From NCBI GenBank assembly GCA_015231705.1, contig JADGBC010000019.1, positions 1 to 32,856 of the forward strand: 32,856 bases of DNA, in the 5' to 3' direction. Source of the stretch: Desulfamplus sp. (GTDB taxonomy: Bacteria > Desulfobacterota > Desulfobacteria > Desulfobacterales > Desulfobacteraceae). The notes under the pieces were generated by a model. It was not told where the DNA came from. It searched no databases and saw only the letters and a list, made by a program, of their open reading frames with translations. Shown piece by piece: positions 6,475-26,539 of the stretch; the first letter of the stretch is position 1; every line of letters starts with the position of its first letter. Made by a program: the position numbers and the translations under genes.

Positions 6475-7722
6475 TCATGGCACCACCTTAAGTTCCGGTG
6501 GCAGAGAAGTTCCAAGTTCAAGATTAATCAGATCCACAACGGATCTGTTTAAAGTCATGTGATAGGCAGGAGTTGATGACTCGCATAAATCATCTCTTGA
6601 AAGTGTCATTATTTTTTGTGCCATCTGCATTCCTATTATCCTGTAATCCAGAATAAAACTCAATGCAGCACCTGATTTATGAAAAAAACTGTTATATCCT
6701 ATGACCGGAATTCTTCTGGCAATTGATTGCTTGATGATATGGCTGATAATTGTAGGAGATGTTACGGTTTTATCTGGTATAAAGAGAAGTGCGTCCACAT
6801 CTGAATTCTCATTCTGATGTAGGCGGTTCACGTCGTGCTGTTCTTTTATGTAGATGGGTACAGAGTTTATTTCATTAAATAGACCTTGATTTTTTGCATT
6901 TTGAAACCACTCGCTGTTATTATCCGGGTCAAAGAGTATCCCCATTTTTTTGACAGAGGGAAATACCTTTTTTATTTTTGCAATAGTCTCTTCTGAAAAC
7001 AGATTAAGAGATATTCCACACAATGAAACTCCCCTGGGAATTATAGTTTCAGGGTTTAGTACCATGGCATAGAGAATCTTTCTGGTATTGGCATGGGGAA
7101 TAATTTTGATGTTGAGTCTGGTATCAGCAGCCTGTAACATAGAGTTGTTTATTCGGGTATCGTTATTGATCTGCTTTGTAGGCACTACTACAGTATGAAA
7201 TATGTTCTCTTTGTGCTGAGGCGGCAGGGCCTCCCCTGGCTGAGGTCTGTTATCTTCATTCTGAGGGGGGGAAGTTTCGTTTTGAGGGATAGTATCTTGA
7301 GTTAGTTTATTATTTTCTACAAGGTATGATAATGCCGACGGACCAACTGCAACTACAAATGAATAGTTGTCAATCTGAGTGCCTTTATAGAGAGGGTCAT
7401 GGCTGAAAGGGCTGTTGTTCTTATCGATGAAAATACGGACAACCGGCTGATCCAGAGCAGATTCAAGTCCTTCTACCATTTCGATAAAAGGTTTGATCTC
7501 TCTGGATATGAGAATGGCAACAGGAAGGGTATCAGCCTGAACCTTTGTTGAAAATCCAGGCATAGCCATGATTGCCATCAGTATCACCGCTGATACCAAC
7601 AATAATATAAGCAGCTTTATTGCAATTACTGTTGGATTGAAATTTCTTCTGACTGGTGAAATAATCGACGGTGATGATGGCGTACAAATCCAATGCGATA
7701 ATTTAGTTATCCTTCTTTTCAA
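6475..7722 (-). CDS. Periplasmic binding protein, PF04392-like, without transporter partners
   Basis: About 415 residues resembling the ABC_sub_bind (PF04392) type I periplasmic-binding fold: VVAVGPSALSYL, MVLNPETIIPRG, VFPSVKKMGILFDPDNNSEW, DALLFIPDKTV and RIPVIGYNSFFHKSGAALSF. A hydrophobic segment at about 33-63 is a signal peptide or anchor. No permease or ATPase gene is nearby, so a sensing role with the adjacent kinase is plausible. The start is uncertain: the frame opens with TTG at 7722, overlapping the gspD end by 20 nt, and there is no ATG before the hydrophobic segment. A Pro/Gln-rich insert with PPQ(N/H) repeats lies near residues 142-165. Family call moderate; ligand unknown. Confidence 0.75.
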   Translation of the reverse strand: MKRRITKLSHWICTPSSPSIISPVRRNFNPTVIAIKLLILLLVSAVILMAIMAMPGFSTKVQADTLPVAILISREIKPFIEMVEGLESALDQPVVRIFIDKNNSPFSHDPLYKGTQIDNYSFVVAVGPSALSYLVENNKLTQDTIPQNETSPPQNEDNRPQPGEALPPQHKENIFHTVVVPTKQINNDTRINNSMLQAADTRLNIKIIPHANTRKILYAMVLNPETIIPRGVSLCGISLNLFSEETIAKIKKVFPSVKKMGILFDPDNNSEWFQNAKNQGLFNEINSVPIYIKEQHDVNRLHQNENSDVDALLFIPDKTVTSPTIISHIIKQSIARRIPVIGYNSFFHKSGAALSFILDYRIIGMQMAQKIMTLSRDDLCESSTPAYHMTLNRSVVDLINLELGTSLPPELKVVP

Positions 7723-10177
7723 TAAGATTCTTGATGCTCTCTATTTTAGCTGCAAATTCACGGGTTACACGGTCTGCCGCCTCCCGTGAGTCCACCACAT
7801 GTGGGGTTAACAGAAATATCAGTTCAGTTTTTTTTGTCTCGTCTGTTGTGCCTTTAAAAAGATATCCCAGAACCGGAATATCTTTTAGAAAAGGAACTCC
7901 TGCATCGCTGTTATCTATCTGACTTCGCATCAGGCCACCCATAAGTATAGTTTGTTGATCATTTACTACAAGAGAGGTTTCAGCTTTCCTTGTGAGGATG
8001 GGGTAGTTCTTGGCAACCTCATCATAGCTTCCTCTTGCACTCACCTCCTGGGAGAGCTCCATTTTTACAAGACCACTTGAATTTATATGTGGAGTAACAT
8101 TAAGAATGATGCCGGTTTTTTTATATTGTACAGAGTTTGTAATGCCACCATTTATATCTGTGACAGAACCAGTAAGGGTAGGTACATCCTCTCCAACTTC
8201 TATCATTGCCTCTTTATTGTCAACTGCCATTATATTTGGAGATGAGAGGATATTGACTTTAGAGTCTGAACCTAATGCCGTGACAAGCCCCTTGAGGACA
8301 TCAGTAGAATTATATATGCCATATGATATATTAGATACTGTGCCCAGTGCTTGATTAAAAGCACGACTTGAATCTTTGATATCAAGCCCGCCTTGGCCCT
8401 GGTAATTTCCAAGTTTGTTATTCAACAGCCACTGAACTCCATACTGGGTTTTATCGTTAAGGGTTACTTCTGCAATTACAACATTTATAAGTACCTGACG
8501 TGGAGTAACATCAAGCTCTTTGAGGACATTTTTGATTATTTTGTAATCCCTCTGAGAGGCTTTAAAGATGATTGCATTATTGGTCTCATCAGGTATGATC
8601 TCTACATCTCCTGAGAGGTCTCCAGAGACATTGCCTGTTTTTGAATTTACCGCAGAGGTATCTTTATTTTTAGACGTGACTGCCTTTTCCGTGGGTTTTA
8701 CAATCTGGGTTTTCTGCGAAGATGAACCGCTTGCTTTTCCTCCATAGAGCTGCTTGAGAATATCAGCCATTTCAACGGCTGTACCGTTTTCCACAAAATA
8801 GACAAACACCCCTGTCCCATTGCCGGCATCATCTCCAAGGTAATCCATTGCTGAGATCCACTTATCAACAAGATCCAAAATTTCAGGCCATCTTGTTGCA
8901 ACCAAAATGGCATTGATGCTGTCAATGCTCAGAATCTCATACCCGCCTTTCAATGCTCCTGGTCTGTAATAGAGTCCGGCACTTTTAATAAGTTTGGTGA
9001 TATTCTGGACAATATCCTTTGCCTCTATCTCTTTGACAGGGAATATTCTCCAGGAGATATCCATGAAATATGGTACATCCATCATAGCAAGAACGTTAAT
9101 GACCTTTTCTACATTCTCAAGAGTATCTGTCACGATTATCGAGTTATTGACAGTATCAATAGAGATTGGTGCCCCTTTGGATGTAAACGTCTGAATACTT
9201 TTCAAAACTCCTGCGGCATCTAAATATTTAAGCCGGATGAGGCGGGAGATATCCCCTGAAGCGTCAGGCAGTCCATCTTCATATATATCCTGTGAAGAGA
9301 GTCCCGCACTCTCATTTTTTCTGACGACCTTGAACATATCTCCCGGCCCCTGTGTGATGGAAAGATTGCTCAACTGCAGAATATCATTTAAAAGTGCGAT
9401 AAATTCATATTTTGTATAAGATCCTGAAAAGTGGAAAGATACCTTTGCCCTGACATGAGGATCTATTATGTAGTTGACCTTATAGAGTTCAAACAAGGTG
9501 GCATCTAAAACTTCAAAAAGATCGGCATTGTCAAAGGCAAGTTCAATCTTGACAGGTGCGGATTCAGCGTTCAGGGAAGAGGATTTTGACCTTTTTCCGA
9601 TCTCTTTGCCTATGCTCGAACTTTGCACTTTTTTCAATGTATCAATCTTCAATTGCCCCTGTAGAACAGGATTGTTTGCGTTATTTCCTTTGAGTTGATC
9701 ATTAAAACTGTTGGTTGTGATTTTATCGTCAGAGCTGCTAAATAGTGTTTGAGTCTTAAAACTGCTGATGTCAGTCTCTCTTTCAACTGTTTTTTCATTT
9801 GACTCTTCATCAAAAATAGCAAGATTTTTTTCAACTGGCTGTGAAGTATAAGTAGTAGAAATGGTGGTAGAAGACGAAACTGGAAGTCCGTTTTGTCCAT
9901 TGGTTTTAACTGGCTCTTCGGAAGGTCTAGCAAACTGTGTTGGAGCAGCCTGGGCAGGTTGTTCCAGGATTTGAACAGACTTTCTATGGGAGGTACAACC
10001 TGAAAAGAGAAGAAGTATCAAAGCTGTCGATAGCCAGAGCAACCCTCCCTTCACCTTTACTTTCATCCTATCTCTGTGTGTACTATCTACAATTTTTTTT
10101 GGGGACATTGATTCTTGTATGTATTCATATTCTTTTGTAGAAAAATTTTTTCTCATTAATCTCATTAACTTAACCAT
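7703..10177 (-). CDS. gspD: Type II secretion outer-membrane secretin GspD
   Basis: 824 residues from the ATG at 10177. GspD forms the gated outer-membrane channel of the T2SS. N-domains are seen as repeated ring-building modules, e.g. DLFEVLDATLFELYKVNYIID, then ISRLIRLKYLDAAGVLKSI and TGVFVYFVENGTAVEMADIL. The secretin core contains PRQVLINVVIAEVTL, VGEDVPTLTGSV and the signature VPFLKDIPVLGYLFKG, followed by TELIFLLTPHVV. A lipobox (LLLFSGC) follows a hydrophobic helix, so it looks like a lipidated secretin. The start is debatable: ATG 10177 lies 7 nt after the gspM stop, whereas ATG 10066 would give a compact 23-residue lipoprotein signal. A Ser/Lys-rich linker (SSSQKTQIVKPTEKAVTSKN) splits two N-domains. 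It is last in the gsp gene order, which is unusual. Confidence 0.93.
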   Translation of the reverse strand: MVKLMRLMRKNFSTKEYEYIQESMSPKKIVDSTHRDRMKVKVKGGLLWLSTALILLLFSGCTSHRKSVQILEQPAQAAPTQFARPSEEPVKTNGQNGLPVSSSTTISTTYTSQPVEKNLAIFDEESNEKTVERETDISSFKTQTLFSSSDDKITTNSFNDQLKGNNANNPVLQGQLKIDTLKKVQSSSIGKEIGKRSKSSSLNAESAPVKIELAFDNADLFEVLDATLFELYKVNYIIDPHVRAKVSFHFSGSYTKYEFIALLNDILQLSNLSITQGPGDMFKVVRKNESAGLSSQDIYEDGLPDASGDISRLIRLKYLDAAGVLKSIQTFTSKGAPISIDTVNNSIIVTDTLENVEKVINVLAMMDVPYFMDISWRIFPVKEIEAKDIVQNITKLIKSAGLYYRPGALKGGYEILSIDSINAILVATRWPEILDLVDKWISAMDYLGDDAGNGTGVFVYFVENGTAVEMADILKQLYGGKASGSSSQKTQIVKPTEKAVTSKNKDTSAVNSKTGNVSGDLSGDVEIIPDETNNAIIFKASQRDYKIIKNVLKELDVTPRQVLINVVIAEVTLNDKTQYGVQWLLNNKLGNYQGQGGLDIKDSSRAFNQALGTVSNISYGIYNSTDVLKGLVTALGSDSKVNILSSPNIMAVDNKEAMIEVGEDVPTLTGSVTDINGGITNSVQYKKTGIILNVTPHINSSGLVKMELSQEVSARGSYDEVAKNYPILTRKAETSLVVNDQQTILMGGLMRSQIDNSDAGVPFLKDIPVLGYLFKGTTDETKKTELIFLLTPHVVDSREAADRVTREFAAKIESIKNLIEKKDN

Positions 10178-10184
10178 TCTTTTA

Positions 10185-10736
10185 TTAATCCTTATCAACA
10201 AACAAGGTTTCAAGTCTGAAGGTAATATGGAGATTGTTCTCCCTGCTTCTGCTGTAGTTTATATTTAGTTGTCCTATCCTGACAAGCTGCTTTAACTCTT
10301 CAAGGTATCTTAGAAGAGAGGCAAGTCCATTATGGTTTGTTGTTACTGTGAACTCAAGCACTCCAACATCGTAATCCATCCATCTTCCAGGGCCTGATAC
10401 CAGATACTTTTGTAGCGGGATACTGTTCTTGTCCATAAAATTCTGCATTTTTTGTTGTATGACAGCATTCATCTCCTCAAGGTTTTTGCCTGGGATCATA
10501 AGGTTTGCAAAACCTTGTACTTCAGTTTCCTGAATCATATTTTCTGAGTGAATGGCTTCAAGTTCTTTAATTTTTTTCTTTACCCGCAGTTTTTTTTCAA
10601 GTTTAAGGGTATATTCAGCGTTTGCTTCAGTTATACTATCCTGTAGAGGGGAATAAAAATAGACCCACCATACCAGAGTAGTCAGTATGGCAAGAAGTGC
10701 ACCCATAAACCACTGTCGATTGCGTTTTTTGCTCAT
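10185..10736 (-). CDS. gspM: GspM/PilO-like inner-membrane assembly protein
   Basis: 183 residues: a short basic cytoplasmic end, one transmembrane helix (about 9-28), a coiled-coil (about 33-70) and a small periplasmic ferredoxin-like domain. This is the GspM/PilO layout. It would pair with GspL in the inner-membrane platform. Its ATG overlaps the gspL stop by 4 nt (ATGA), indicating translational coupling, and gspD follows after 7 nt. Sequence similarity in this family is low, so the call rests mainly on topology and on position between gspL and gspD. Confidence 0.72.
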   Translation of the reverse strand: MSKKRNRQWFMGALLAILTTLVWWVYFYSPLQDSITEANAEYTLKLEKKLRVKKKIKELEAIHSENMIQETEVQGFANLMIPGKNLEEMNAVIQQKMQNFMDKNSIPLQKYLVSGPGRWMDYDVGVLEFTVTTNHNGLASLLRYLEELKQLVRIGQLNINYSRSRENNLHITFRLETLFVDKD

Positions 10737-12433
10737 TGTACCCCTCCTGAAACACTACCTGAAGGCTTGACAGGTTGTCTTGATGAGGTAAACGGATTGG
10801 AACCAGCATCAACAGCCTGCTTTGTCAGACCAGAAGACGTTGCGGAAGATTTCGATTCAGGATTTGAAGAATCTGAGCCGGCATTCTCTTTTTTAAAATC
10901 AGGATCTGGTTCTGGATTTTTGGTGCTAATATCCGGTTCTGGAGGTTTGATGTCAATTGCCAGTGTAAAACTTTCATCTCCGTTGGGCCTTCGGTTTACA
11001 GAACCTCTTAGAATCACGTTATCAAAAAGTTTGGACGAACGTAAGGATTCAACAGTCTTAAGGGCATCTCTTCCAGTTCCTCTGAGTGTAATTCCACTGT
11101 TGTTGAAGGTAAAATTTGCAAACCATGTGCCATCAGGTACAAGGGATGCAATCTCATTTATCACTGTATAGAGGGCAGGGCGTGTCTGCATGAACTCCTG
11201 CACATCAGTTTTGAATCTTGAGGCTTTTTTTAGTGTATCAATTTTATTCTGCAGGGGCTCCAGATCATTTTCCAGTGCTGTAACCTGTTGTGTTATTTCG
11301 TTTAATTGTGATTTTGCCTCAATACTTGCAGTATTTGCCTTGTCTGTCACAAAATATAAAATGGCGATCAGAACACAAAGGAACGGCAAAATATATCGAA
11401 ACGGATGAATAATATTGATCTTTACTGGCTGCTCATCCAAAGATATCTGCTGAATTTTGGTGATAAAAGGAGCCACTGCCGCAGATGCACGATTTGTTGA
11501 AAAATGGGGAAGATATGAAAGAGTGCGTTTTTTGCCTTTTGCCTGTCTATCTTTTGTTCTGTCATATTTTTTTGATCCCCTGTTGTTACTATCTTTTCCT
11601 GTGATCTCTCTTTGAGATTTCTGTTCTGCTGTCCAGCCACTGCCAAGCTCTGTTTCTTTCCTGCCAAGCTCTGTTTTTGTCAAACCAAGTTCTGATTTTT
11701 TTGCTATTTTCTGGTCAGTATATTTAGAGGGGCATGAATCTGAAGAGAGTTCATTGACCATCTCTTTAAATTGGGGGAACTTGTTGCTTGCCGCACTCAG
11801 AATCATCTTTTTTTCATCTTCAGCATCAACAGGGCAGGACATTGAGAAGACAAGGGTTTTGCCTGATCTTACAAAAATCTCGATAATATCATCTTGTATT
11901 AACGAAACAGTTTCACCGTCAGATAGTGCACCATCATCTATCAGAGCACAAACTCCATAACTTAATGGAAATATGCCTTTCAAAGAGGTTCCATGACCAG
12001 TTTCCGAAAAGAGTTTTCGGTATTTCTCCATTTCATCTTTTGAAGCATAGACAAGTAATGCATGGAATGAGCCACCATTTTGATCAGAAACAATTACATC
12101 ATAATATATTGAATCAGGCTCAAGATGAGAGTATATGGCAAGGCTGTTTTTGATTGACATAAGTGCATCTTCAACCGGCATGGCAGGAATGTCTATCTCT
12201 CTGATAAAAATTTCGGCCCTTGAAAGAGCAAGGTATATATCTCTTGAACTGTCAACCGGCAGCTCTGTTAAAAATGATCTAAGCAGAGTATAGCCGTTAC
12301 CATGACTTGTTTTGTGAGAACCATGCCCGTGTCCTGGGGACTTAAGAGCATAACCAGATATCCCCTTTCCAACAGATACATAATGCAGAGAGTCCCTGTC
12401 AGCGTATATTCCAAGTATCTTTTTTTTTATCAA
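10733..12433 (-). CDS. gspL: GspL-like platform protein (PilM-like cytoplasmic plus PilN-like periplasmic part)
   Basis: 566 residues. The N-terminal half is a PilM/GspL-like actin-fold domain (ILGIYADRDSLHYVSVGKG, then DIYLALSRAEIFIREIDIP). A transmembrane helix lies at about 346-362, then a coiled-coil and a PilN/GspL-like periplasmic domain (LVPDGTWFANFTFNNSGITLRG). It would tether the GspE ATPase to the inner membrane. A low-complexity linker (about 230-305) includes a 7-residue tandem repeat KSELG/KTELG/KETELG, encoded by a 21-bp DNA repeat at 11641-11695. A His/Gly-rich patch lies at 32-48. The tail is Ser/Pro-rich. The start is TTG at 12433 with AAGGTG 4 nt upstream. An ATG at 12446 is out of frame because of a 9-A run. 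Confidence 0.83.
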   Translation of the reverse strand: MIKKKILGIYADRDSLHYVSVGKGISGYALKSPGHGHGSHKTSHGNGYTLLRSFLTELPVDSSRDIYLALSRAEIFIREIDIPAMPVEDALMSIKNSLAIYSHLEPDSIYYDVIVSDQNGGSFHALLVYASKDEMEKYRKLFSETGHGTSLKGIFPLSYGVCALIDDGALSDGETVSLIQDDIIEIFVRSGKTLVFSMSCPVDAEDEKKMILSAASNKFPQFKEMVNELSSDSCPSKYTDQKIAKKSELGLTKTELGRKETELGSGWTAEQKSQREITGKDSNNRGSKKYDRTKDRQAKGKKRTLSYLPHFSTNRASAAVAPFITKIQQISLDEQPVKINIIHPFRYILPFLCVLIAILYFVTDKANTASIEAKSQLNEITQQVTALENDLEPLQNKIDTLKKASRFKTDVQEFMQTRPALYTVINEIASLVPDGTWFANFTFNNSGITLRGTGRDALKTVESLRSSKLFDNVILRGSVNRRPNGDESFTLAIDIKPPEPDISTKNPEPDPDFKKENAGSDSSNPESKSSATSSGLTKQAVDAGSNPFTSSRQPVKPSGSVSGGVQ

Positions 12434-12715: not shown

Positions 12716-13675
12716 TCACTGACTCATGCGGACAACCATGATCCGGCTTAGTTGTTCAACAATTTTAAAGGATTTGCCCTCTTTAGTGATCCAGAAAATT
12801 TCATTATGCCATGTGTCTCCATCTCCTGGAAAAAGCATGGTGACCCGTATATAGTTTTTAGGGTATATTGTAAACTGTTCTATGATAGACTCTATTTTCT
12901 CGCTGTCATAAAAATCGGACTCTTGATCTTTTTTGTTTCCAGAGCCTTTGTATGATCTGCTGTTTGCGGCATAAGTATCTGCAAGTTCAGAATAGGCAGG
13001 CAGCTTAAGTATGTATTCATAAGGGTTGCCCCAGAACAGGTAGGAGCTAAATCCTTTTACCAGGAAAATCTGAGACATGCTTTTGAATGGACCGTTTCCA
13101 GGGTCACATGGAGGATAGATATCGTTATAATATGCATTTTCTGCCCCATTGAGCCGCACAAGGTCATCTGGATCAAGCCAGTCAAGCAGTGCGTCAGTAA
13201 AAGCATCAGCCTCTTGTTCTCTTTGTGTCCCATAAATTGATTGAAGATTTGTCCTGATATTGTTCTCCTGATCCAAGAATAATGGCGTTCTTGAAGATTC
13301 ATTTTCAATTTTTACCCACATATCAACTGATCCTGGTCTAAGCCGTATCCAGGGTACTGTTCCATTTTGAATACTGCCTCGGGCATCATCTATATGTGCC
13401 ATCTTCTTGTTTGCCCTGTCAGGATTTGTATCAGCATCTGAATTTTCCTCCTGAGCCTTTGTTTTAAGAAAGTCGTACTGTTCTGAGGCAAAAAGCTCAA
13501 GCACAGAAAATATAGCTGCCTCCCGCTGAAATCTTCCGGTTGCGTTCAGGGCAATAGCACTTTTTTGTCTGTTGTGGGCAATATATTCGCTTGATAGAAA
13601 ACTTATAACAACCAGAATCCATAAGACAAGCACCAATATGCTTCCCTTCTGGTTTATCAGTTTGCCATGACTCAA
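12716..13675 (-). CDS. gspK: Type II secretion minor pseudopilin GspK
   Basis: 319 residues. A short leader ends QKG, followed by SILVLVLWILVVISFLSSEY: prepilin cleavage after G11. The mature +5 residue is Leu rather than Glu, as is usual for GspK, the tip pseudopilin. The large globular domain contains the GspK-type stretch DALLDWLDPDDLVRLNGAENAYY. The start appears to be TTG at 13675, preceded by a G-run about 6 nt upstream that belongs to the 19-bp tandem repeat joining gspJ and gspK. There is no in-frame ATG near the leader. A charged, low-complexity stretch (about 74-92) and another near 240-252 are inserted in the globular part. Confidence 0.88.
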   Translation of the reverse strand: MSHGKLINQKGSILVLVLWILVVISFLSSEYIAHNRQKSAIALNATGRFQREAAIFSVLELFASEQYDFLKTKAQEENSDADTNPDRANKKMAHIDDARGSIQNGTVPWIRLRPGSVDMWVKIENESSRTPLFLDQENNIRTNLQSIYGTQREQEADAFTDALLDWLDPDDLVRLNGAENAYYNDIYPPCDPGNGPFKSMSQIFLVKGFSSYLFWGNPYEYILKLPAYSELADTYAANSRSYKGSGNKKDQESDFYDSEKIESIIEQFTIYPKNYIRVTMLFPGDGDTWHNEIFWITKEGKSFKIVEQLSRIMVVRMSQ

Positions 13676-13729
13676 ATTTTTCCCCCAACTTCAAATTTTC
13701 CCCCCAGCTTCAAATCTTACCCCCAACCT
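13672..13729 (-). repeat. Three tandem 19-20 bp repeats spanning the gspJ stop and gspK start
   Basis: Read on the minus strand, three consecutive units of 20, 19 and 19 bp each have the pattern AG-n-TGGGGG-n-AA-n-ATTTGA. The TGA of the first unit is the gspJ stop (13712-13710). The TTG of the last unit is the apparent gspK start (13675-13673), and its G-run is in Shine-Dalgarno position. Because 19 is not a multiple of 3, loss or gain of a unit would alter frame and spacing. Confidence 0.85.
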
Positions 13730-14735
13730 TGAAAAGCCAGACAGAAGGAGTTCCAGCTCTTCGTTTTGTCTGGGCAAAGAGCAGCCGGATAAAACCCGGC
13801 TGTTCAGAAGAATTTTCATCCCAGGTATCCTTAAAAGATGCTCCATCCATTTTAAAATCAGATGAATTTCGTGAAGATGATCTGTTTGATGAGAATGATC
13901 TTATTGAACTACCAGATGGGTTGCTGAATGAACTCTCCTGAAAAACAGTGCTATCCTCTCCTGCGAGAAAGGATAGTGAAAACTCTTCAACATCTGTTAT
14001 TGTTGCCACAGGGGTAATCTCTCCACTGGATTTTGATCCTGATTTACTGTAGCTTGATTTTTTACCCGACTTCCAGTTCCGACCTCCATGTTTTTCAGTA
14101 CCTGCTTTTCCGGAAATTGAGAAGATAGTTTCACTCTCTTTTATATCCTCCTGACTTCCTATCACCTTTTCATAAACAGTAAGCTTTTTTGCCTCTTGAT
14201 CATAAAGATAGGCAACCCTTATAAGCCCTTGAGATGGTGTCCCCTGGGGAGAGTAGAGTGTATAGAATGAAAGCATGTTCTCTTTTCCTAAAAACTGAAG
14301 TTGAGTCATTGTACCTGTCTGGGTCATTGGTTTTGTGGCTGGCATTGGAGTTTTGCTGGCCATCAATGGGTTGTCAGGTTGCTCAGAAGCAGTGAACGTC
14401 TCTAAAGAGCCTGTAAGTACTGTGTTGCTGATTATAGAGCGAAGCTGTCTCTCCAGCATATAGGGAAGAACCACTTCGATCTGCACCTTGTCTCCCTCAG
14501 CAATGCCCCGTTCCCATGCCTGAAGGTTTACTCTGAGGGCAAAGGCCATTATAAGAGTTATCATGGAGACCAAGATCATTGAAACAAGAACCTCTATCAG
14601 GGTAAATCCATGGCTGTCCAGGGCAGCTTCTGAGTTAGCAGGTGTAAATTCAGAGTTGCCAAAAGTGATGGTCTCGTAAAAAATCCGCAATTGACGTTTT
14701 TTGGTATGATAACCGTTTGTTTTTATTGGACGCAT
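13710..14735 (-). CDS. gspJ: Type II secretion minor pseudopilin GspJ with MITE-derived N-terminus
   Basis: 341 residues from the ATG at 14735. The class III leader ends DSHG at residue 43, followed by FTLIEVLVSMILVSMITLIM with Glu at +5; the globular part fits GspJ (LPYMLERQLRSII, QLQFLGKENMLSFYTLYSP). Residues 1-23 (starting MRPIKTNGYH) are encoded by a MITE copy (14667-14767). Removing the element and one 6-bp duplication joins a GTG at 14803 in frame: M-S-I-Y-L-K-H-R-R-L-T-F, then the present G26. That GTG overlaps the gspI stop as GTGA, a typical coupled start. From this GTG the frame now stops inside the MITE, at a TAA 8 nt beyond the new ATG. A very Ser-rich insert (about 264-292) and a Gly/Lys/Ser insert (about 216-238) are present. 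Confidence 0.88.
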   Translation of the reverse strand: MRPIKTNGYHTKKRQLRIFYETITFGNSEFTPANSEAALDSHGFTLIEVLVSMILVSMITLIMAFALRVNLQAWERGIAEGDKVQIEVVLPYMLERQLRSIISNTVLTGSLETFTASEQPDNPLMASKTPMPATKPMTQTGTMTQLQFLGKENMLSFYTLYSPQGTPSQGLIRVAYLYDQEAKKLTVYEKVIGSQEDIKESETIFSISGKAGTEKHGGRNWKSGKKSSYSKSGSKSSGEITPVATITDVEEFSLSFLAGEDSTVFQESSFSNPSGSSIRSFSSNRSSSRNSSDFKMDGASFKDTWDENSSEQPGFIRLLFAQTKRRAGTPSVWLFKVGGKI

Positions 14736-14799: not shown

Positions 14800-15384
14800 T
14801 CACTTGGTTTTCTCTTTGGCTTTTACTGGAGTTGTCACAATTTGGATGTCAGTTGAATCCTGCTGCCTTTTCCATCGGGAGACACAATACTCTTTGTTGA
14901 TAAGCTGGTTGGTCTGGCTGACACATAAGGTTATACTGACCATACCTGGAACCTCAATCTCCTCTCCAGTGACCGTTTTTTTACTTCTCGGGGCACCATT
15001 TTTATTACTGTTCTTGCTTCCTTTTTTACCCGTGTTGCCGCTATCTGAATATTGAGAATCAATATCCCACACAAGATCGGCACTATTTACTACAAGAGGA
15101 GTAGTTTCTGCTCTGCATACCCATCCATCTTCATCTTCAAGAGTTTTTTCAAAATTTTTGTTTTCTACAACCATTTTCATCAGCTCAGGATTGTTTAGAA
15201 TGTTATTCAAGATTCTGACAGATTCAATTGCATGATCTGACCTTGAAGAGAGCCCCTTGGCTGTAGATAGAGCTCCAGTAACCGCTGTAATGGAAATGCC
15301 GATGATTATAAGAGCCACCATAACTTCCAGCAGTGTGTATCCTTCAGTATCAAGATCTTCAAAACAGACATTTTGTCTTTTCAT
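14800..15384 (-). CDS. gspI: Type II secretion minor pseudopilin GspI
   Basis: 194 residues. The leader is 15 residues ending TEG, then YTLLEVMVALIIIGISITAV, with Glu at +5. This is the GspI/GspJ-type pseudopilin pattern; position between gspH and gspJ supports GspI. The globular part has an Asn/Lys/Ser-rich linker (about 113-135) before GEEIEVPGMVSITLCVS. The ATG at 15384 is directly next to MITE copy 2; the only plausible Shine-Dalgarno (GAGGG, 10 nt upstream) lies within the end of that element. The stop overlaps the inferred ancestral gspJ GTG start. Confidence 0.85.
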   Translation of the reverse strand: MKRQNVCFEDLDTEGYTLLEVMVALIIIGISITAVTGALSTAKGLSSRSDHAIESVRILNNILNNPELMKMVVENKNFEKTLEDEDGWVCRAETTPLVVNSADLVWDIDSQYSDSGNTGKKGSKNSNKNGAPRSKKTVTGEEIEVPGMVSITLCVSQTNQLINKEYCVSRWKRQQDSTDIQIVTTPVKAKEKTK

Positions 15385-15499: not shown

Positions 15500-16078
15500 T
15501 TAAAAAGAATCGTGAGAGGATATCTCTTTGATACTTCCAGTAAGCATATCCACCTGAAATGTAAACTCAAACTCATTCTCAACAGAAACTGCCAAGATGC
15601 CACCGCCAGAACTTCCATCAGGATAAAAACAGATAAAATAGAGACCATTTGAGTCAACTTTTATATTTTCCCCTTCAAGAAGAATATTTTCGGGTATTTT
15701 AAGCATATCGGCATTTTCGGAACTGCTCGGGAAATCACCATATTTGTCAATATTTCTGGAGCTACCTTCAAATCCGTCATTGATTGCCGTTTGGCTATCT
15801 GACATGGCATCATCCATAAAACCGATACTGCACTCTCTTGATTCAGATGAAATAGTAAGGCAGGAAGGAATCCCTTTACCCACAGCACTAAGCCTGGCCT
15901 TTTTGCACATGGCAACTATTTTGTCCGCAAACATTCGGCTCTCCTTCATTCTTCCGGATTGACCCACGTTCATTAAAACAAGAGAACCTGCAATGGCAAT
16001 AAGTATTATTACAACAATGATTTCAATAAGAGTAAAACCGTTTCTATTTGGCCATGAATGTTTAGAACTGTATTTCAT
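15500..16078 (-). CDS. gspH: Type II secretion minor pseudopilin GspH
   Basis: 192 residues from the ATG at 16078. The leader is 14 residues ending NRNG, then FTLIEIIVVIILIAIAGSLVL, with Glu at +5. The globular part fits GspH (FADKIVAMCKKARLSAVGKG early, GLYFICFYPDGSSGGGILAV late). I prefer this start over an upstream in-frame one at 16168, which would add 30 residues read from within gspF with a Phe/Pro-rich sequence unlike a prepilin leader. With this choice the gene overlaps the gspF end by 17 nt, with GGTG just upstream of the ATG. Confidence 0.85.
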   Translation of the reverse strand: MKYSSKHSWPNRNGFTLIEIIVVIILIAIAGSLVLMNVGQSGRMKESRMFADKIVAMCKKARLSAVGKGIPSCLTISSESRECSIGFMDDAMSDSQTAINDGFEGSSRNIDKYGDFPSSSENADMLKIPENILLEGENIKVDSNGLYFICFYPDGSSGGGILAVSVENEFEFTFQVDMLTGSIKEISSHDSF

Positions 16079-17276
16079 TGACACCAAAAATGGTGGTAAG
16101 CATGGATACAACCACGCCACCGATAAGAAGTCCGAGAAAAAGTATGGAAAATGGTTCCAGAAGAGCAAGATAGGTTTTGATCTTGGATTGAATTTTTCTG
16201 TCTAAATCATCTGCCACAGAGATCAGCATGTCACCAATTTTTCCTGTCTCTTCACCAAGAGAGACCATCTGTACCACCATGGGGGGAAAAATTTTTCTCT
16301 CTTTCATCAGCGAGCTTACGCTTCTTCCCTCTTTTACCTGCTTGTATATATGCTCCACAGCATCTTTTACCTGACTGTTTGCCACCACAGCCTTTACAAT
16401 ATGAAGAGCTTTCATAAGTGGGACACCGCTTTTAATAAGGGTGCCAAGTGTTCGTGAAAATCGGCTCATCTCGATATCAAGCATCACCTCTCCAATATAG
16501 GGCACTTTAAGGATATTTTTATCCATGATATTTCTTCCCTGATCTGTTTTCAGAAACCTCCATAAAAACAGAAACAGGCATATGAAAACAGAAATCAACA
16601 GCCACCACCACACTCTTAAGAAATTGCTTATTTCCAGCAATATCTTTGTAGAGAGTGGGATCTGTTGTCCCAGATCCGCAAATATGCCTGCAAATTTTGG
16701 CACCACAAAACCCAGAATGACCAGCAGAGACAAAAAACCAACTGAAAGAAGAATTGCGGGGTATATGGATGATGATATCACATACTTCTTGATCTCTTCT
16801 GTCCTTCCAATGAATTCCGAAAGCCTCTCCATAACTGACGGAAGAATGCCTCCCATCTCCCCGACTCTCACCATGTTGACATAAAGATCATTGAAATCAT
16901 GATGTTTTTCTGCCATTGCATCAGATAGATTTGTTCCCTTTTTAAGAGCATCCTGGAGATATACTGTCATCTCTTTGATTTTGGAGTCAGAGGTTGCACT
17001 GCCGGCAATGGACAGTGCCCTGTCAATTGGAAGGCCTGAACGGAAAAGATGGGCAAGGTCAGAGGTAAGTTGGAGCAGGCGTGCGTTGCTTAAGCTGCGT
17101 CCGGTTGAAAAAAGAGTGATTCCAATTCCGGTTGATGATTTTTCATTGAGCCAGCGTAATAGAACAGATCCCCTTGCCTGAAGTATCAACAGAATTTCAT
17201 CTCTGTCTCTGGCTTCCATGGTCTCTGCCATTTTTTTGCCATCAGGGTTAATGGCTTCAAATCGAAACAGTGGCAT
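16062..17276 (-). CDS. gspF: Type II secretion inner-membrane platform protein GspF
   Basis: 404 residues, normal length for GspF. Two homologous cytoplasmic four-helix domains (LLQLTSDLAHLFRSGLPIDRAL and MSRFSRTLGTLIKSGVPLMKAL) alternate with three transmembrane segments: about 169-192, 222-241 and 372-394. It couples the GspE ATPase to pseudopilus assembly. The ATG shares its A with the gspE TAA stop (TAATG), so the two are tightly coupled. No unusual residues seen. Confidence 0.95.
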   Translation of the reverse strand: MPLFRFEAINPDGKKMAETMEARDRDEILLILQARGSVLLRWLNEKSSTGIGITLFSTGRSLSNARLLQLTSDLAHLFRSGLPIDRALSIAGSATSDSKIKEMTVYLQDALKKGTNLSDAMAEKHHDFNDLYVNMVRVGEMGGILPSVMERLSEFIGRTEEIKKYVISSSIYPAILLSVGFLSLLVILGFVVPKFAGIFADLGQQIPLSTKILLEISNFLRVWWWLLISVFICLFLFLWRFLKTDQGRNIMDKNILKVPYIGEVMLDIEMSRFSRTLGTLIKSGVPLMKALHIVKAVVANSQVKDAVEHIYKQVKEGRSVSSLMKERKIFPPMVVQMVSLGEETGKIGDMLISVADDLDRKIQSKIKTYLALLEPFSILFLGLLIGGVVVSMLTTIFGVNEIQF

Positions 17277-18934
17277 TATCTTGACACCCTCAATACTTCT
17301 TCGTATGTGGTAAGTCCCTGCTTAACCTTTTCAATTCCATCCATTTTAAGTGATATCATCCCTTTGGAAACAGCTTTTTTAAAAAGGCGGTTTCTATCAG
17401 AACCAGCAACAATTTCTCCTTGCAGGTCATCATCTATGACCATCAGCTCAAATATTCCAAGCCGTCCCTTGTATCCTGTTTCACCACATGCTTTACACCC
17501 CTCACCTCTGTAAAAGCTGGGGGTAAGTCTCTCTGGAGGAAGATCAAAATCCAGAGCAAGAGATTCAAGCTGCTCATTGGAAAGATTAACCTGTCTGCGA
17601 CAATGGGCACATATCTTTCGTACCAGACGCTGTGCAAGTACTCCCACAAGTGAGGATGATATCATAAACCTTTCAATGCCCATATCTTCAAGCCTGGTAA
17701 CTGCTCCTGCAGCATCATTTGTGTGAAGTGTGGAAAAGACCATATGGCCGGTAAGAGCAGCCTGAACAGCAATTTCAGCCGTCTCTCCATCCCTGATCTC
17801 TCCAATTAGCATAACATCAGGGTCATGGCGGAGAAAAGATCTGAGAGTATGGGCAAATGTCAATCCGATTGATGACTGCACCTGTACCTGATTAACCCCG
17901 TCCATCTGATACTCTACAGGATCCTCTACAGTTACGATTTTTTTATCGGGTGTATTTATCTCGCTTAAGGCAGCATAAAGAGTGGTTGTTTTTCCAGAAC
18001 CGGTTGGCCCTGTGACTAAAAGAATCCCAAACGGCATTGAGATAACAGATCGAAATTTTTTGAGCAAGATATCATCAAATCCAAGCCTTTTTAGATCTAA
18101 AGAGACATTCTCCTTGTTCAGCAATCTTAAAACAATACTCTCTCCAAAGTGAGTAGGGACAGTTGAGACGCGAATATCAACTTCATCCTGTCCTGCTTTT
18201 ATCTTGATTCTTCCATCCTGCGGCAGCCTTCTTTCTGCAATGTCAAGTTTTGCCATGAGCTTTATTCTTGAAATGATAGCAGCTTTGAGCTTGGCAGAAA
18301 TACTCTCCTGGTCGTGAAGAACTCCATCGATACGATACCTGACCAAAACCATGTGTCGTCTCGGTTCAATATGGATATCAGATACTCCAAGTTCCAGAGC
18401 ACGATTGATCACATGGTTCACCAATCGGATAACAGGTGCTTCCGTGGCCATCCCTTTTAGTTGTTCAGGGTCATCCCACAGGGCATCTTCCAAAGATAGG
18501 TTAAGAGCATCTGCACTCTCTTCACCTGTCATGTCAGCATCTGCCTCATACCACCTATAAATATACTGACTGACCATTTCGTTGGATGCTTTGTAAACAT
18601 CTAATTTTTTTGCATAGGCTTTTCTGATAATCTCGCGGGTATTGAAATCCAGAGGGTCAGCCATGATTACCTGAAGTTTTGCCTCAGAATCATTGACAGG
18701 AAGAAATTTGAATCTTTTCATAAAATGAACTGGAAGAAGAAGAACAGCAGGAGGGCTTTCAGGGATATCCTTTTCATCCATCTCAGGAGTAGTTGCAGCT
18801 GCGGATTTTGAAACAGTGGCAGCATCTGATTCAGAAATAGATGAGGATTCTGATTCAGACATGGCAGTAGCAGGTGATTCCGGCGTGTCAACATCGGCTG
18901 ATTCAGGAACAGTGTCTGAAGGTGTTATTCCCAA
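17276..18934 (-). CDS. gspE: Type II secretion assembly ATPase GspE
   Basis: 552 residues. It powers pseudopilus assembly from the cytoplasm. An N-terminal Ser/Glu/Asp/Ala-rich low-complexity stretch (1-60) precedes the T2SSE N-domain (PPAVLLLPVHFMKRFKFLPV). The ATPase core has RIDG, Walker A GPTGSGKTT at 309-317, VEDPVEYQMDGVNQVQV, Walker B VMLIGEIRD at 374-382 and the His box TGHMVFSTLHTNDAA. The zinc site is complete: C442-x2-C445 and C480-x2-C483. The start is TTG at 18934 with AAGGA 9 nt upstream, overlapping the gspG end by 10 nt. The low-complexity N-terminus replaces the region that usually contacts GspL. Confidence 0.95.
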   Translation of the reverse strand: MGITPSDTVPESADVDTPESPATAMSESESSSISESDAATVSKSAAATTPEMDEKDIPESPPAVLLLPVHFMKRFKFLPVNDSEAKLQVIMADPLDFNTREIIRKAYAKKLDVYKASNEMVSQYIYRWYEADADMTGEESADALNLSLEDALWDDPEQLKGMATEAPVIRLVNHVINRALELGVSDIHIEPRRHMVLVRYRIDGVLHDQESISAKLKAAIISRIKLMAKLDIAERRLPQDGRIKIKAGQDEVDIRVSTVPTHFGESIVLRLLNKENVSLDLKRLGFDDILLKKFRSVISMPFGILLVTGPTGSGKTTTLYAALSEINTPDKKIVTVEDPVEYQMDGVNQVQVQSSIGLTFAHTLRSFLRHDPDVMLIGEIRDGETAEIAVQAALTGHMVFSTLHTNDAAGAVTRLEDMGIERFMISSSLVGVLAQRLVRKICAHCRRQVNLSNEQLESLALDFDLPPERLTPSFYRGEGCKACGETGYKGRLGIFELMVIDDDLQGEIVAGSDRNRLFKKAVSKGMISLKMDGIEKVKQGLTTYEEVLRVSR

Positions 18935-19431
18935 CTTACAATATCCTTATCCATTTTATCTTCTCCGCCCTGAGCATTGTCCTGACCATAGCTGAAAAGA
19001 TCATATTGGCCATGCTCTCCTGGAGAGACATAATTAAACTCGTTGTCCCATGCATCCTTTGGAACTGCTTTGGGAAGGTAGGGTCCATCCCAGTTTTTAA
19101 GTTCGCCAGGGTTTTCTCTGAGAGCATTTAGTCCCTCTTCTGTTGTAGGGTATCTTCCGTTGTCAAGGCGGAAGCTGTCAAGGGCGGATCCAAGCAGTTC
19201 AATCTGGGTTTTTGTTGTTTTGATTTTGGCCTGGTCAATTTTGCCGAAAAACTTTGGGGCTACCAGTGCGGATAAAAGACCCACAATGATAATTACCACC
19301 ATGATTTCTATCAGTGTAAATCCTCTTTGATTGAATCGCTTCCGATTGAATCTCTTTTCTTTTAAAGAGCTTGTTTCTATTAAGCAGCTTGTTGCTATTA
19401 AACAGCTTGTTTTTTGTGCGATATCTTCCAT
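18925..19431 (-). CDS. gspG: Type II secretion major pseudopilin GspG with a repeat-built leader
   Basis: 168 residues. The mature part is a standard major pseudopilin: after G37 comes FTLIEIMVVIIIVGLLSALVAPKFF with Glu42 at +5, then DNGRYPTTEEGLNALRENP, WDGPYLPK, DAWDNEFNYVSPGEHG and DLFSYGQD. The leader is 37 residues, far longer than usual, and is made of short repeats: CLIATSCLIETSS from an 18-bp DNA repeat and KRFNRKRFNQ from a 15-bp repeat. No other ATG, GTG or TTG occurs in frame within it, so the ATG at 19431 must be the start. A hairpin lies 30-55 nt upstream. Confidence 0.94.
   Translation of the reverse strand: MEDIAQKTSCLIATSCLIETSSLKEKRFNRKRFNQRGFTLIEIMVVIIIVGLLSALVAPKFFGKIDQAKIKTTKTQIELLGSALDSFRLDNGRYPTTEEGLNALRENPGELKNWDGPYLPKAVPKDAWDNEFNYVSPGEHGQYDLFSYGQDNAQGGEDKMDKDIVSWE
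19330..19420 (-). repeat. Two short tandem repeats encoding the GspG leader
   Basis: A 15-bp unit occurs twice (19330-19344 ATTGAATCGCTTCCG and 19345-19359 ATTGAATCTCTTTTC). An 18-bp unit occurs twice plus a partial third (19369-19386 GCTTGTTTCTATTAAGCA, 19387-19404 GCTTGTTGCTATTAAACA, then from 19405). Both unit lengths are multiples of 3, so copy changes keep the frame. Confidence 0.8.
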
Positions 19432-19501: not shown

Positions 19502-19600
19502 TTTATTTATATTATTCTTTTACCATGAAAATCCCCTCTGTTTTTCATAATTAGGGGTGGCCGCATAATGGCCATGAAGCTTTATTTATATTATTCTTTT
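19502..19600 (+). repeat. Repeat family B copy 1, flanked by a 20-bp direct duplication
   Basis: The core at 19522-19585 starts ACCATGAAAAT and contains GGGGTGGCCGCATAATGG. It can form two hairpins: ATGAAAA with TTTTCAT, then TGGCC with GGCCA. The 20-mer TTTATTTATATTATTCTTTT occurs identically on both sides (19502-19521 and 19581-19600). The right copy covers the stop codon of the DUF1573 gene. Other family B copies are at 25388-25450 and 28499-28594. Confidence 0.8.
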
Positions 19601-20811
19601 GTTTGCTTTTCTGGCTCTTTTTGTGGCTCTCCTTGAGAGTTTTGATACTCCTGAGCTTTCTGTTTTTCCTGAGCCTGTTTTATCAGTGCTTCAAATTTCT
19701 TCTTCAACTCTTCTGCACGTTTAGGATCCTGTATAGGAGCTTGATTCTGACCTGATGCCGAAGCCTGGCCTGGTGCTACGTTTCCGCTTGCACCTGTGGC
19801 ATTCTGCTGCTGCATCTTCTGAATAACTTCAAGAAAATTTTTCCCTCTATCTGCGTTGCTACCATTGATGCCGACTTCTCCACTATTCCCGTTTTTACCA
19901 GCACTGTCATTATCATGGCTGTGAGGAGTCAGGACGTTTTCAGAGCTTCCTGTTGTTTGACCGGCAGGAATGCTGGGATCAGTGATTCTTGCCATGACAT
20001 TAATTTTTATTTCAGGCTGAATCTTGCTGTCGGTTTCTATAATCAGAACATCGTAATAGGAGCCTGCGTCCTTCTTCAAATTCTCAACAGTAATTGAGTA
20101 CTCTTTGCCTCCGGAAGGAGCTTTGTCTTCTTTAAGCTCATATTTAATATTTGTTCCTTCCTGAGCACTAAGTTTAATAATTGAAAATTGGTATTTACTT
20201 TCCGGTATGATTTTTAACAGAGCTTTTAACTCATCACCAATATTTCCATTAAGCCGCAGAACACTGGGTGTTATGGTGACAAATTTTTCAACATTGCCTG
20301 ATACGGTAAGGCTAGATTCTGGTGCTTTGCTGTCATTTGTAATAACAGAAATTGTTTTCATCAGTTTGCGTCCACCATAGCCTTTTGTATTAACTTTTAT
20401 CGATATTTTTCCCTCTCCACCTGGAGGGATTTCTCTTGAATAAGAGACCGTGGTGCACCCTCAACCAGTTTTGACCTTTTGAACCTCAAGCGTATCAGTG
20501 CCTTTATTCATAATTATAAAATCATGTACTAATTCAGCACCATCAACTTCAGAGTCGAATTCAAACTTGGGTTCAGGAAAAAACACAGAAGGTGCTTTTG
20601 AAGAGTCCTGATTTTTTGCTGAAACCGCTTGTTTTGAAGTCTCATTTTTTTGTTCGGAGTTCTCTTGTTTTAAAACCGCTTTACTTTGATCAGAGGTTTT
20701 TTGTTCAACAGTCTCCTTGTTTGCCTCTGTTGTGTTGGCACTGAAACCTGAAGATGCCGCACAGAGAAAAATAATTAAGGAGTACACAAAAATCTTACAC
20801 ATCCCATTCAT
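19591..20811 (-). CDS. Candidate selenoprotein: periplasmic DUF1573 protein with in-frame TGA
   Basis: One open frame of 406 residues if the TGA at 20463-20461 (codon 117) is read through. A signal peptide comes first (MCKIFVYSLIIFLCAASSGFSA), then a charged low-complexity region (27-72), then a DUF1573 (PF07610)-like domain: FEFDSEVDGAELVHDFIIMNKG, VQKVKTG, [TGA], GCTTVSYSREIPPGGEGK. The family consensus has CGC at this point, so the TGA sits exactly where the first Cys belongs. After it, 33 codons with good family sequence lead in frame to the next Met, and 256 more follow. The rest has IgG-like beta-strand sequence and a Gln/Lys/Pro-rich tail. Alternatives are a nonsense mutation or sequence error. 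It is first in the gsp direction, before gspG; its T2SS role is unknown. Confidence 0.7.
20410..20447 (-). promoter_or_regulatory. Two hairpins just after the in-frame TGA (possible bacterial SECIS)
   Basis: Counting from the TGA on the minus strand, nt 14-29 form UCUCUU-AUUC-AAGAGA and nt 32-51 form UCCCUC-CAGGUGGA-GAGGGA. Both have perfect 6-bp stems. The second loop contains GGU, as in the E. coli fdhF SECIS loop, but it starts at about +38, slightly farther than in known bacterial SECIS elements. This is suggestive, not proof. Confidence 0.4.
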
Positions 20812-20936
20812 AACTCAATTCCTTTACGTTGAAATAAAAAAACTTAAAATAAAATTTAACTCTTTAAATTGTCCGCAAATTGCAATGCAAAAAACAGACC
20901 CATAAAAAACTGACCAAGAATAATAGCGAAATGGAC

Positions 20937-22569: not shown

Positions 22570-23754
22570 ATGACAGATACCATTATGGATAATAAAAGAT
22601 CTTTTTTTACTTCTGAATCTGTAACAGAAGGACATCCTGATAAAGTGGCTGATGCCATCTCGGACAGCATCCTTGATGCCATCATGGCTGAAGATACCAA
22701 GTGCAGGGTCGCATGTGAAACTCTCGTGACTACAGGCCTTGCAATGATTGCAGGTGAGATAACCACAAGTTGCTACGTGGATATTCCAGCCATTGTCAGA
22801 GAGACTATAAGAGATATCGGGTATCACTCGTCTGACATGGGTTTTGACTGGAGAACATGCTCTGTAGTCACCAGCATTGGTCATCAGTCGCCAGATATTG
22901 CTCAAGGTGTTGATGAAGGTGACGGGCTTTTCAAGGAACAGGGGGCTGGTGATCAGGGTCTTATGTTTGGTTTTGCGACTGATGAGACTCCCGAACTTAG
23001 GCCCATGCCAATCAGCTATGCTCATAAACTTACCAAGCGGCTTGCACAAGTTAGAAAAAATAGTGCTCTTGATTTCCTGCGGCCTGCTGGTAAATCTCAA
23101 GTTACCATTGAATATGTGGATGGCAAACCATTGAGAGTCGATACTGTTGTGGTGTCTGCTCAACATAAACCAGGTATCAGCCATCCAGATCTCAGTGAGG
23201 CCATTATAAAAGAGGTTATTAAAAAAGTAATTCCAGCAGATATGATTGATGGTGACACCAAATTTTTCATCAATCCCACTGGTAAATTTGTCATTGGCGG
23301 ACCAATGGGAGATTGCGGCCTCACAGGCAGAAAAATTATTGTAGATACCTACGGTGGCCAGGGAAGTCATGGTGGAGGATGCTTCTCAGGAAAAGATCCC
23401 TCCAAAGTTGACAGAAGTGCTTCTTATATGGGCAGGTATATCGCAAAAAACATGGTTGCAGCCGGGGTGGCAAATAAATGTGAAATTCAGGTTGCCTACG
23501 CTATTGGTGTTGCAGAGCCAGTATCGCTGCTTGTTGACTTCATGGGAACAGGAAAAATTTCTGAAACCAGGGCAACACAGATTATTCGTGAAGTGTTTGA
23601 CCTCAGGCCAGCAGGGATAATCAAAACCTTGAACCTGCTTAGACCCATCTACCGAAAAACATCAGCTTACGGCCACTTTGGACGACATGATCCTGATTTT
23701 ACATGGGAGCATACAGACAAGGCAGAAGAGATCCGGATTAAAGCCGGACTTTAA
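22570..23754 (+). CDS. metK: S-adenosylmethionine synthetase
   Basis: 394 residues, normal length. It makes SAM from ATP and methionine in the cytoplasm. Key motifs: [20 protein letters not shown] with the ATP-binding His, [25 protein letters not shown] and the P-loop-like [16 protein letters not shown] (Cys where Ala is common). The C-terminus [17 protein letters not shown] is complete. AAGGAG lies 11 nt before the ATG; a second Met at codon 6 is also possible. ahcY follows on the same strand after 183 bp. No SAM riboswitch was recognised upstream. Confidence 0.97.
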
Positions 23755-23849
23755 ATAGAGAGCGGCGTATCTACTGGCTGAGGATGTAATAACTGAAGGA
23801 CGCAATGAGTTGATAGTATAGGAATTTTCATTTTTCCTTTCATAATATC

Positions 23850-23867
23850 ATTCAAAATATTTTGAAT
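23850..23867. promoter_or_regulatory. 18-bp perfect palindrome between metK and ahcY
   Basis: ATTCAAAATATTTTGAAT is self-complementary and lies 70 bp before the ahcY ATG. It may be an operator or a weak hairpin. Its neighbourhood has no T-run and does not look like a terminator. Confidence 0.3.
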
Positions 23868-23937
23868 CATCTGTTTCGCAGTAATTGTTGCTGGAGTCAA
23901 TCTCCTGGACAATAAATTAAAGATTAAGGATTTTATA

Positions 23938-25383: not shown

Positions 25384-25387
25384 ATTT

Positions 25388-25450
25388 ACCATGAAAATGC
25401 ATTCTGATTTTCGTGGTTCGGGGTGGCCACATAACGGCCATGAAAGTTTA
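25388..25450 (+). repeat. Repeat family B copy 2, downstream of ahcY
   Basis: Starts 4 nt after the ahcY stop. The first hairpin is ACCATGAAAAT against ATTTTCGTGGT (11 bp, one G-U pair); the second is TGGCC against GGCCA. Compared with copy 1, loops and some stem positions differ while pairing is kept. It may act as a 3' end or stability element; no T-run follows. Confidence 0.75.
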
Positions 25451-25561
25451 TATGACTACATATACTGTAATCTATCTTTCTCTGACCAGCTCTTTTTGAC
25501 CATAATGGACAGGAAGAACAGTAGGAAGCGGATTGATCTATCAGAGAACTGGACTATATAG

Positions 25562-26335: not shown

Positions 26336-26346
26336 TAACTTTTATC

Positions 26347-26373: not shown

Positions 26374-26539
26374 TAAACTTCATTTGGTTTAAGAAAAAAC
26401 ATTTAAGATGTTGGTCTTTATTAATTAATTTCAGTTATTATTTATTGTTTTATAATTAATTGATATAGTTTTATAATTCAGTCATGGCTTAAACAGTCAT
26501 ATTAAATTTTACTGGTTATTTATTACGGAAACAATCTCA

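Follow-up and report, generated by a model that had tools for sequence, protein, structure and literature searches.

A predicted U-G-C selenoprotein gene at the head of a type II secretion operon in Desulfamplus

The gene that heads a type II secretion system (T2SS) operon in the window, the 32,856-nucleotide stretch of a Desulfamplus sp. contig analysed here, almost certainly encodes one selenoprotein, with the UGA at codon 117 read as selenocysteine (Sec). As far as sequence can tell, this is indicated by a UGA that is in frame and conserved and that swaps with Cys codons only, by RNA structure linked to Sec, and by the presence of SelA, SelB, SelD, and tRNA-Sec in the same genome. Taken as a whole, the explanation that combines a selenoprotein, its decoding, a redox role, and a T2SS-linked copy is probable.

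A first-pass annotation, made from the bare sequence, had put the gene forward as a candidate selenoprotein. Conservation and the Sec machinery bear this out, but the protein is neither a bare candidate nor a member of a novel family, since the family is already known and listed as a predicted selenoprotein. NCBIfam NF041425 (OS_HP2_seleno) matches with 135 bits against a curated cut-off of 100, and two reviews (PMC9312934 and PMC13188914) tabulate DUF1573 with the motif UGC among predicted prokaryotic selenoproteins, referring it to a 2007 study. Among the papers listed in a literature search for the name OS_HP2, similar strings of letters stood only for unrelated things; searching full texts for DUF1573 yielded three papers. 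The window protein shares the domain and the UGC motif with OS_HP2/NF041425, whereas its subfamily heads a T2SS operon, has a two-helix tail of ~128 residues, and in Sec form was seen in one genus among the 58 genomes searched. The position at the head of the T2SS together with the extra helical tail, and the paired hairpins described below, did not turn up in print in literature searches on these two topics and look new.

An in-frame TGA that alternates with cysteine codons

The minus-strand frame runs from an ATG at 20811 through 116 codons to the TGA and then through 289 codons to a TAA ending at 19591, as the first-pass annotation had read it, with the residues ...KVKTG-U-GCTTVSYS... flanking codon 117. 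The DUF1573 assignment holds as well, with the Pfam match running across the TGA (residues 79-174, 65.9 bits with the TGA read as a residue) and the part downstream of it scoring 32.4 bits by itself. As had been anticipated for automatic gene calling, a mechanical ORF list without recoding presents the gene as two separate ORFs; callers that end every frame at TGA turn the window gene into two hypothetical proteins and would do the same to each of its 58 Sec relatives. A scan for promoters and terminators gave signals at shuffled level, a terminator-like site on the opposite strand being hairpin 2 read backwards, and a search of a plasmid collection with the protein gave no match. The features are collected in Table 1.

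Table 1. Positions of the selenoprotein gene, its parts, and the T2SS genes in the window
Feature	Positions	Strand	Basis
OS_HP2/DUF1573 selenoprotein gene, 406 codons, UGA = predicted Sec117	19591..20811	-	frame, Pfam, NF041425, intact orthologues
In-frame UGA, predicted Sec codon	20461..20463	-	sequence and column of 76 homologues
AAGGA, likely ribosome-binding site, 8 bases 5' of ATG	20820..20824	-	read from sequence
Hydrophobic N-terminus, residues 1-25, signal peptide or membrane anchor	20737..20811	-	sequence
Ig-like/ASH domain 1, residues 75-176, UGC between two strands	20284..20589	-	AlphaFold2 model, pLDDT mostly >90
Ig-like domain 2, residues 177-278	19978..20283	-	AlphaFold2 model
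U-G-C motif	20455..20463	-	homologue alignment
C-terminal helix, residues 363-392 (KRAEELKKKFEALIKQAQEKQ)	19636..19725	-	AlphaFold2 model; sequence comparison
Putative SECIS hairpin 1, TCTCTT-ATTC-AAGAGA, bases 17-32 from U of UGA	20432..20447	-	fold, counts, covariation in order-level homologues
Putative SECIS hairpin 2, CTCC-AGGT-GGAG, G in loop, bases 38-49	20415..20426	-	fold, counts; without covariation
gspG	18925..19431	-	Pfam
gspE	17276..18934	-	Pfam
gspF	16062..17276	-	Pfam
gspH-like pseudopilin	15500..16168	-	position and N_methyl motif
gspI-like pseudopilin	14800..15384	-	position and N_methyl motif
gspJ-like pseudopilin	13710..14735	-	position and N_methyl motif
gspK	12716..13675	-	Pfam
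gspL-like	10733..12433	-	PilN domain
gspM-like	10185..10736	-	below family cut-off; without Pfam match
gspD secretin with N0 domain	7703..10213	-	Pfam

A family search over 58 related genomes returned matches in 54 of them (79 rows), which come to 76 loci once three tail fragments of genes already counted are removed (two from G009:C64 and one from G008:C52). In line with the earlier proposal that TGA replaces a Cys, the aligned column holds TGA in 59 homologues and Cys codons in the other 17 (TGC in 10, TGT in 7), and no other codon. The 59 include both G031_C124 and G031_C927, which are identical over their overlap and lie at contig ends, so that they may be one gene counted twice. The Cys at +2 of the UGC motif is retained in 75 of the 76 homologues, and 58 of them have no further Cys within the matched stretch. 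A tree of 73 homologues, from which three short rows were kept out, needs nine changes between Sec and Cys, at least five of them on well-supported branches. In a sample of the phylum, the family is found in 55 of 148 genomes at E 1e-12 and above the cut-off in 14 of 148, with one TGA in 14 of the 17 above-cut-off matches.

All seven Sec orthologues from the same genus are intact across the gene, with the TGA as sole stop, and dN/dS over the 59 codons after it lies between 0.07 and 0.41 in each of the 21 pairs; read from these sequences, the codons are under purifying selection. The Sec machinery that the first-pass annotation had suggested looking for is present in full: the window's genome (3.6 Mb, 282 contigs, ~75% complete) encodes tRNA-Sec with anticodon TCA, SelB (359 bits), SelA (581 bits), and SelD (368 bits), the selD gene carrying an in-frame TGA of its own.

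Pseudogene decay and a sequencing error, both raised at the outset as possible objections, would make the TGA a true stop with decaying halves, or a misread codon, and the two entries in the mechanical ORF list are what either would give. The chance of this is negligible: the TGA is not a read error, since 59 of 76 homologues share it at the aligned position, and the seven same-genus copies without any other stop, together with their low dN/dS after the TGA, speak against decay. To the extent that sequences can settle it, decay and error are excluded for practical purposes. Read-through of another kind, with the UGA decoded as tryptophan or by a near-cognate tRNA, would accord with the failure of hairpin 1 under the strict loop rule for bacterial SECIS elements (bSECIS). 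It is nevertheless highly improbable, because only Cys codons replace the TGA, the genome holds Sec machinery that includes a TGA-containing selD, and RNA structure accompanies the TGA.

Paired hairpins downstream of the UGA

A SECIS-like RNA structure, which the first-pass annotation had advised searching for, is present after the TGA and goes with TGA copies rather than with Cys copies. In the window, the lowest-energy fold of the 51 bases contains two hairpins, with -12.1 kcal/mol for the fold as a whole. Measured against synonymous shuffles, 36-base segments starting 0-30 bases from the codon have mean z scores of -0.7 to -1.1 in Sec genes and about 0 in Cys genes; farther 3', the Sec genes show a mean z of +0.4 at 42-48 and values near 0 thereafter. 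In Sec genes, segments that start 42 to 30 bases 5' of the codon likewise have negative z (about -0.5 to -0.6). The stability signal is strongest just 3' of the codon, yet it is partly present 5' of it and hence not wholly confined. Over the stretch of 48 bases that follows the codon, the 59 Sec genes average a z of -1.09 and the 17 Cys genes one of -0.15, with 1 of 20,000 label permutations as extreme; for the window gene alone the effect over the same 48 bases is mild (z -0.88, 50 of 300 shuffles equally stable).

We observe hairpin 1 in 55 of 59 Sec genes (mean 14.1 and maximum 26 in 200 synonymous shuffles) versus 3 of 17 Cys genes, and hairpin 2 in 51 of 59 (mean 25.9, maximum 37 in 200 shuffles) versus 4 of 17. 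Of the 59 Sec genes, 47 carry both without overlap (200 shuffles averaged 6.0 and never exceeded 15), compared with 2 of 17 Cys genes, the two being G001_C10, from the same genus, and G028_C28. Over five independent tree pairs, the link between Sec and the hairpins has the expected direction and is not significant (median p 0.25). In the order-level set, hairpin 1 spans bases 14-33, as against 17-32 in the window copy, and hairpin 2 falls within bases 35-51.

Covariation was assessed in sets of 26 and 18 of the 59 Sec genes, hand-chosen for being free of gaps and, for the most part, in a single hairpin register; the smaller set excludes G046_C13 and the seven genus copies, among which hairpin 1 is invariant and hence uninformative. 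For hairpin 1, covariation in the 18 sequences is 0.451 versus 0.223 in shuffles (none of 500 reaching it) and no more than 0.162 with the pairing slid, and in the 26 sequences it is 0.344 versus 0.187 in shuffles. Two further measures are weak in the 18 sequences, where both-side changes are reached by 13 of 500 shuffles and pair types by 281 of 500; in the 26 sequences, the corresponding numbers are 122 and 240 of 500. No covariation was found for hairpin 2, which is thereby ruled out as a covarying element; in our own reading it has little room to covary, since each of its pairs links fixed positions within codons. A scan of the window against Rfam at gathering thresholds gave no match.

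The published bSECIS model, as set out in PMC13188914, has a loop of 3-9 bases, a stem of 4-16 bp, a spacing of 16-37 bases, an energy of at most -7.5 kcal/mol, and a G in the first two loop positions. With a stem of 6 bp, a 4-base loop, and a spacing of 19, hairpin 1 of the window lies inside the ranges for length and spacing. A G in the first two loop positions of hairpin 1 is found in only 3 of 47 genes, and the window copy is without it. The AGGT loop of hairpin 2 in the window does have a G, at a spacing of 38, and in 27 of 53 cases this hairpin stands at 38-39 bases, outside the range of 16-37. The arrangement thus resembles the published element in having a stem-loop soon 3' of the UGA and a small, G-bearing loop in hairpin 2; it differs in that two hairpins are adjacent, the covarying first one seldom has the loop G, and the second lies 37-39 bases away unless the first is folded. 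When hairpin 1 is folded out, the distance from the UGA to the loop of hairpin 2 becomes 21-23 bases in 33 of 47 genes (range, 15-25). In the selD of the window's genome, a single strong hairpin presents its G-rich loop 19-20 bases from the UGA.

The occurrence of both hairpins in Sec genes, the folded-out spacing of 21-23, and the selD hairpin at 19-20 bases lead us to suggest, tentatively, a two-part bacterial SECIS in which hairpin 1 acts as a spacer and hairpin 2 is bound by SelB; we consider this possible, though somewhat less than even in likelihood. SelB would contact the G-bearing loop of hairpin 2, and hairpin 1 would fold away some 12-20 bases (16 in the window), moving hairpin 2 from ~37-39 to mostly 21-23 bases and so close to the distance in the genome's own selD. 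Not every bacterial Sec gene conforms to the published SECIS model (PMC13188914), and a two-part element, if true, may account for some of the exceptions. A literature search on two-hairpin SECIS elements brought up no such report among the titles listed.

With respect to sequence variants at the motif, a subclass carries U-G-C-D (mostly P-P-U-G-C-D) in place of U-G-C-T, with Asp at +3 in 14 of the 59 Sec forms (L100, L106, L108, L112, L114, L115, L117, L119-L122, L124, L125, and L130). Its members have an ATP-sulfurylase neighbor in 11 of 14 loci, and they seem to have a weaker hairpin 1 together with a stronger hairpin 2.

Fold, motif, and genomic settings of the family

The AlphaFold2 model (8 sequences) has a mean pLDDT of 69.8, with the folded part mostly above 90. 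It shows two Ig-like sandwiches, at residues 82-175 and 178-277, the UGC lying between two strands of the first. There is no thioredoxin fold: residues 82-277 of the model form strands only, save for a short turn, and no thioredoxin family matches in Pfam. Structure comparison with solved folds placed ASH domains of HYDIN and CEP192, pilus chaperones, and the VesC Ig-fold among the high-ranking matches; an Ig-like fold, here a modeled one, tells nothing certain about function. The tail of ~128 residues has predicted helices at 324-338 and 363-392, the latter found in the seven T2SS-linked copies and in the Cys copy G008_C52, and outside the genus matches end by residue 307 at the latest. By sequence, the single protein gave only two matches in the PDB (best E 0.37). 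A profile of 30 of 73 sequences (A4) weakly matched 2qsv of Porphyromonas gingivalis (E 0.0022), whose Ig-like fold covers the two domains (Z 10.3, though with an rmsd of 13.0) and which differs in having neither UGC nor CGC at the aligned place; troponin and Nif11 matches of the profile were taken as chance.

Redox chemistry is indicated by the pair of U and C in the motif, by thiol-redox neighbors in one of the family's settings, and by the general use of Sec. In the mechanism that we propose, the protein would be exported and would carry U-G-C on a loop of the first of two Ig-like beta-sandwiches, where U and C may form a reversible selenylsulfide; it would then work as a periplasmic partner in thiol-disulfide exchange or in sulfur or selenium transfer. 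We hold this prediction in even balance. That the UGC motif has a redox or metal role at all, as the first-pass annotation also had it, is something we infer.

Across the family, the commonest setting is a HAD hydrolase just downstream (38 of 76 loci), with ATP sulfurylase in 21 of 76, and since this setting lies elsewhere, the basic function is not bound to the T2SS. The window's genome itself has a second OS_HP2 selenoprotein in this HAD-sat setting (contig C282, L072), with a TGA and 123 bits. A third setting comprises DsbD_TM (7 loci), rhodanese (7), SurA-thioredoxin (7), an ArsP-type permease (6), and MauE (5). All these counts cover neighborhoods of up to ~6.5 kb, or to the contig end, with each neighbor family named from one scanned member. 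One scanned neighbor protein is a chorismate-binding/aminotransferase fusion, and another neighbor cluster spans 11 loci (representative in L068). The Cys copies closest to the T2SS group in the tree (L063, L065, and L066) are not linked to a T2SS; L063 and L065 share a neighbor family whose scanned member (L080:5931-8702) is a molybdopterin/2Fe-2S oxidoreductase.

The type II secretion operon

That the gene stands at the head of a T2SS operon is confirmed by the genes that follow it, with G, E, F, K, and D named by Pfam, N_methyl motifs in the H, I, and J positions, and a PilN domain in L. The gspH-like ORF overlaps gspF by ~100 bases, its TTG start probably being set too far upstream. A T2SS operon lies directly 3' of the gene in 7 of 76 family loci, which are all of the same-genus Sec orthologues found (7 of 7), and adjoins none of the other 69, for neighborhoods of up to ~10 kb, or less at contig ends, some contigs ending close to the gene. 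In G029_C93 and G016_C72, weak gspE- or gspD-like matches lie 5-8 kb off on the opposite strand. A further genome of the genus (G003) has a contig that begins inside gspE, placing the upstream side off the contig. The nearest operon outside the genus, in G020, encodes a GspE that is 68-70% identical and keeps the same gsp order from gspG onward; it begins with gspG and is without the selenoprotein gene. No gspC was found in the window's T2SS operon, the only GspC match in that genome being on contig C212 beside a distant gspD, and none was found in the G020 genome (88% complete).

Among the pseudopilins, Cys 88, 103, 113, and 180 of the GspH-like protein are kept in 6 of 6 orthologues compared, Cys 90, 154, and 167 of the GspI-like protein in 4 of 4, and one Cys of GspK in 3 of 3; this set excludes GspH Cys23 and GspI Cys7, where the N-termini align poorly. 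The G020 operon, which has no selenoprotein, lacks GspH Cys103 and Cys180, GspI Cys90, and GspK Cys190, a contrast of aligned sequences with one genome that serves as a lead only.

We envisage a duplicate that, in the Desulfamplus lineage, came to lead a GspC-less T2SS operon and gained the helical tail, and that may serve to hold the Cys of this system's pseudopilins or substrates at the proper redox level. Such a lineage-specific duplicate serving as a dedicated redox factor of the T2SS is a doubtful prediction, and the joint one, in which an Ig-fold U-G-C selenoprotein with a two-part SECIS acts as redox factor of a GspC-less T2SS whose pseudopilins gained Cys, is slightly more doubtful still. 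If the T2SS link is true, it would mean a selenium-dependent step in type II secretion. A literature search joining selenoprotein and T2SS yielded only a fish-pathogen genome, without the word "selenoprotein".

Other roles for the protein have to be weighed against a redox factor. It might be a T2SS substrate, with the Ig-like domain as secretion signal taking the selenoprotein to the cell surface, much as the Ig-fold of VesB is reported to carry such a signal (PMC12369372). The Pfam family PF22544 (HYDIN/VesB/CFA65-like Ig) matches with 44.7 bits against a cut-off of 25.5, VesC of Vibrio cholerae (6bqm) aligns with Z 11.4 and rmsd 2.4 over 98 residues, and the gene does head a T2SS operon. 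Nevertheless, the matches to HYDIN, CEP192, and pilus-chaperone domains are almost as good (Z ~9-11), the other 69 family loci are not beside a T2SS operon, and the VesB signal depends on the PDZ domain of GspC (PMC12369372), while the one GspC match of this genome sits on a different contig. Furthermore, the Ig-like fold shared with the V. cholerae T2SS substrates VesB and VesC, by Pfam and by structure comparison, comes here with the UGC motif and without a protease domain in Pfam, and the secretion described there is putative here. We regard a substrate role as unlikely. It is very unlikely that the protein replaces GspC as an assembly factor, a role for which its layout in sequence and model (a hydrophobic N-terminus as membrane anchor, a beta-rich periplasmic part, and a helical, coiled-coil tail), its place as first gene, and the operon's want of a GspC-type gene would suit it. 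T2SSC (PF11356) is absent among the protein's Pfam matches at E up to 1, such a role leaves Sec unexplained, and the sister operon in G020 starts with gspG without the gene in a genome in which GspC was not found either, so that neither GspC nor the selenoprotein seems needed there.

C-x-C motifs bind soft metals in other proteins, and the U-G-C site could by likeness bind copper, mercury, or a similar metal instead of doing redox chemistry; His96, kept in 69 of 75 homologues, would fit. We consider metal binding unlikely, in that one family setting consists of thiol-redox genes and most selenoproteins are thought to be redox proteins, according to a review. A redox role remains the reading that we prefer.

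With respect to the rest of the window, the minus-strand genes 3' of gspD (878-7722) encode an ABC-type binding protein, a histidine kinase, an NtrC-type regulator, and a TonB-dependent receptor; the operon or cluster may include them, since in G020 (L143), too, gspD is followed by ORFs that resemble these on inspection by eye. On the plus strand (22570-32553), we observe the nickel-pincer cofactor gene larB (295 bits) in a run read by eye as metK, ahcY, larB, ilvD, ilvB, ilvN, and cimA.
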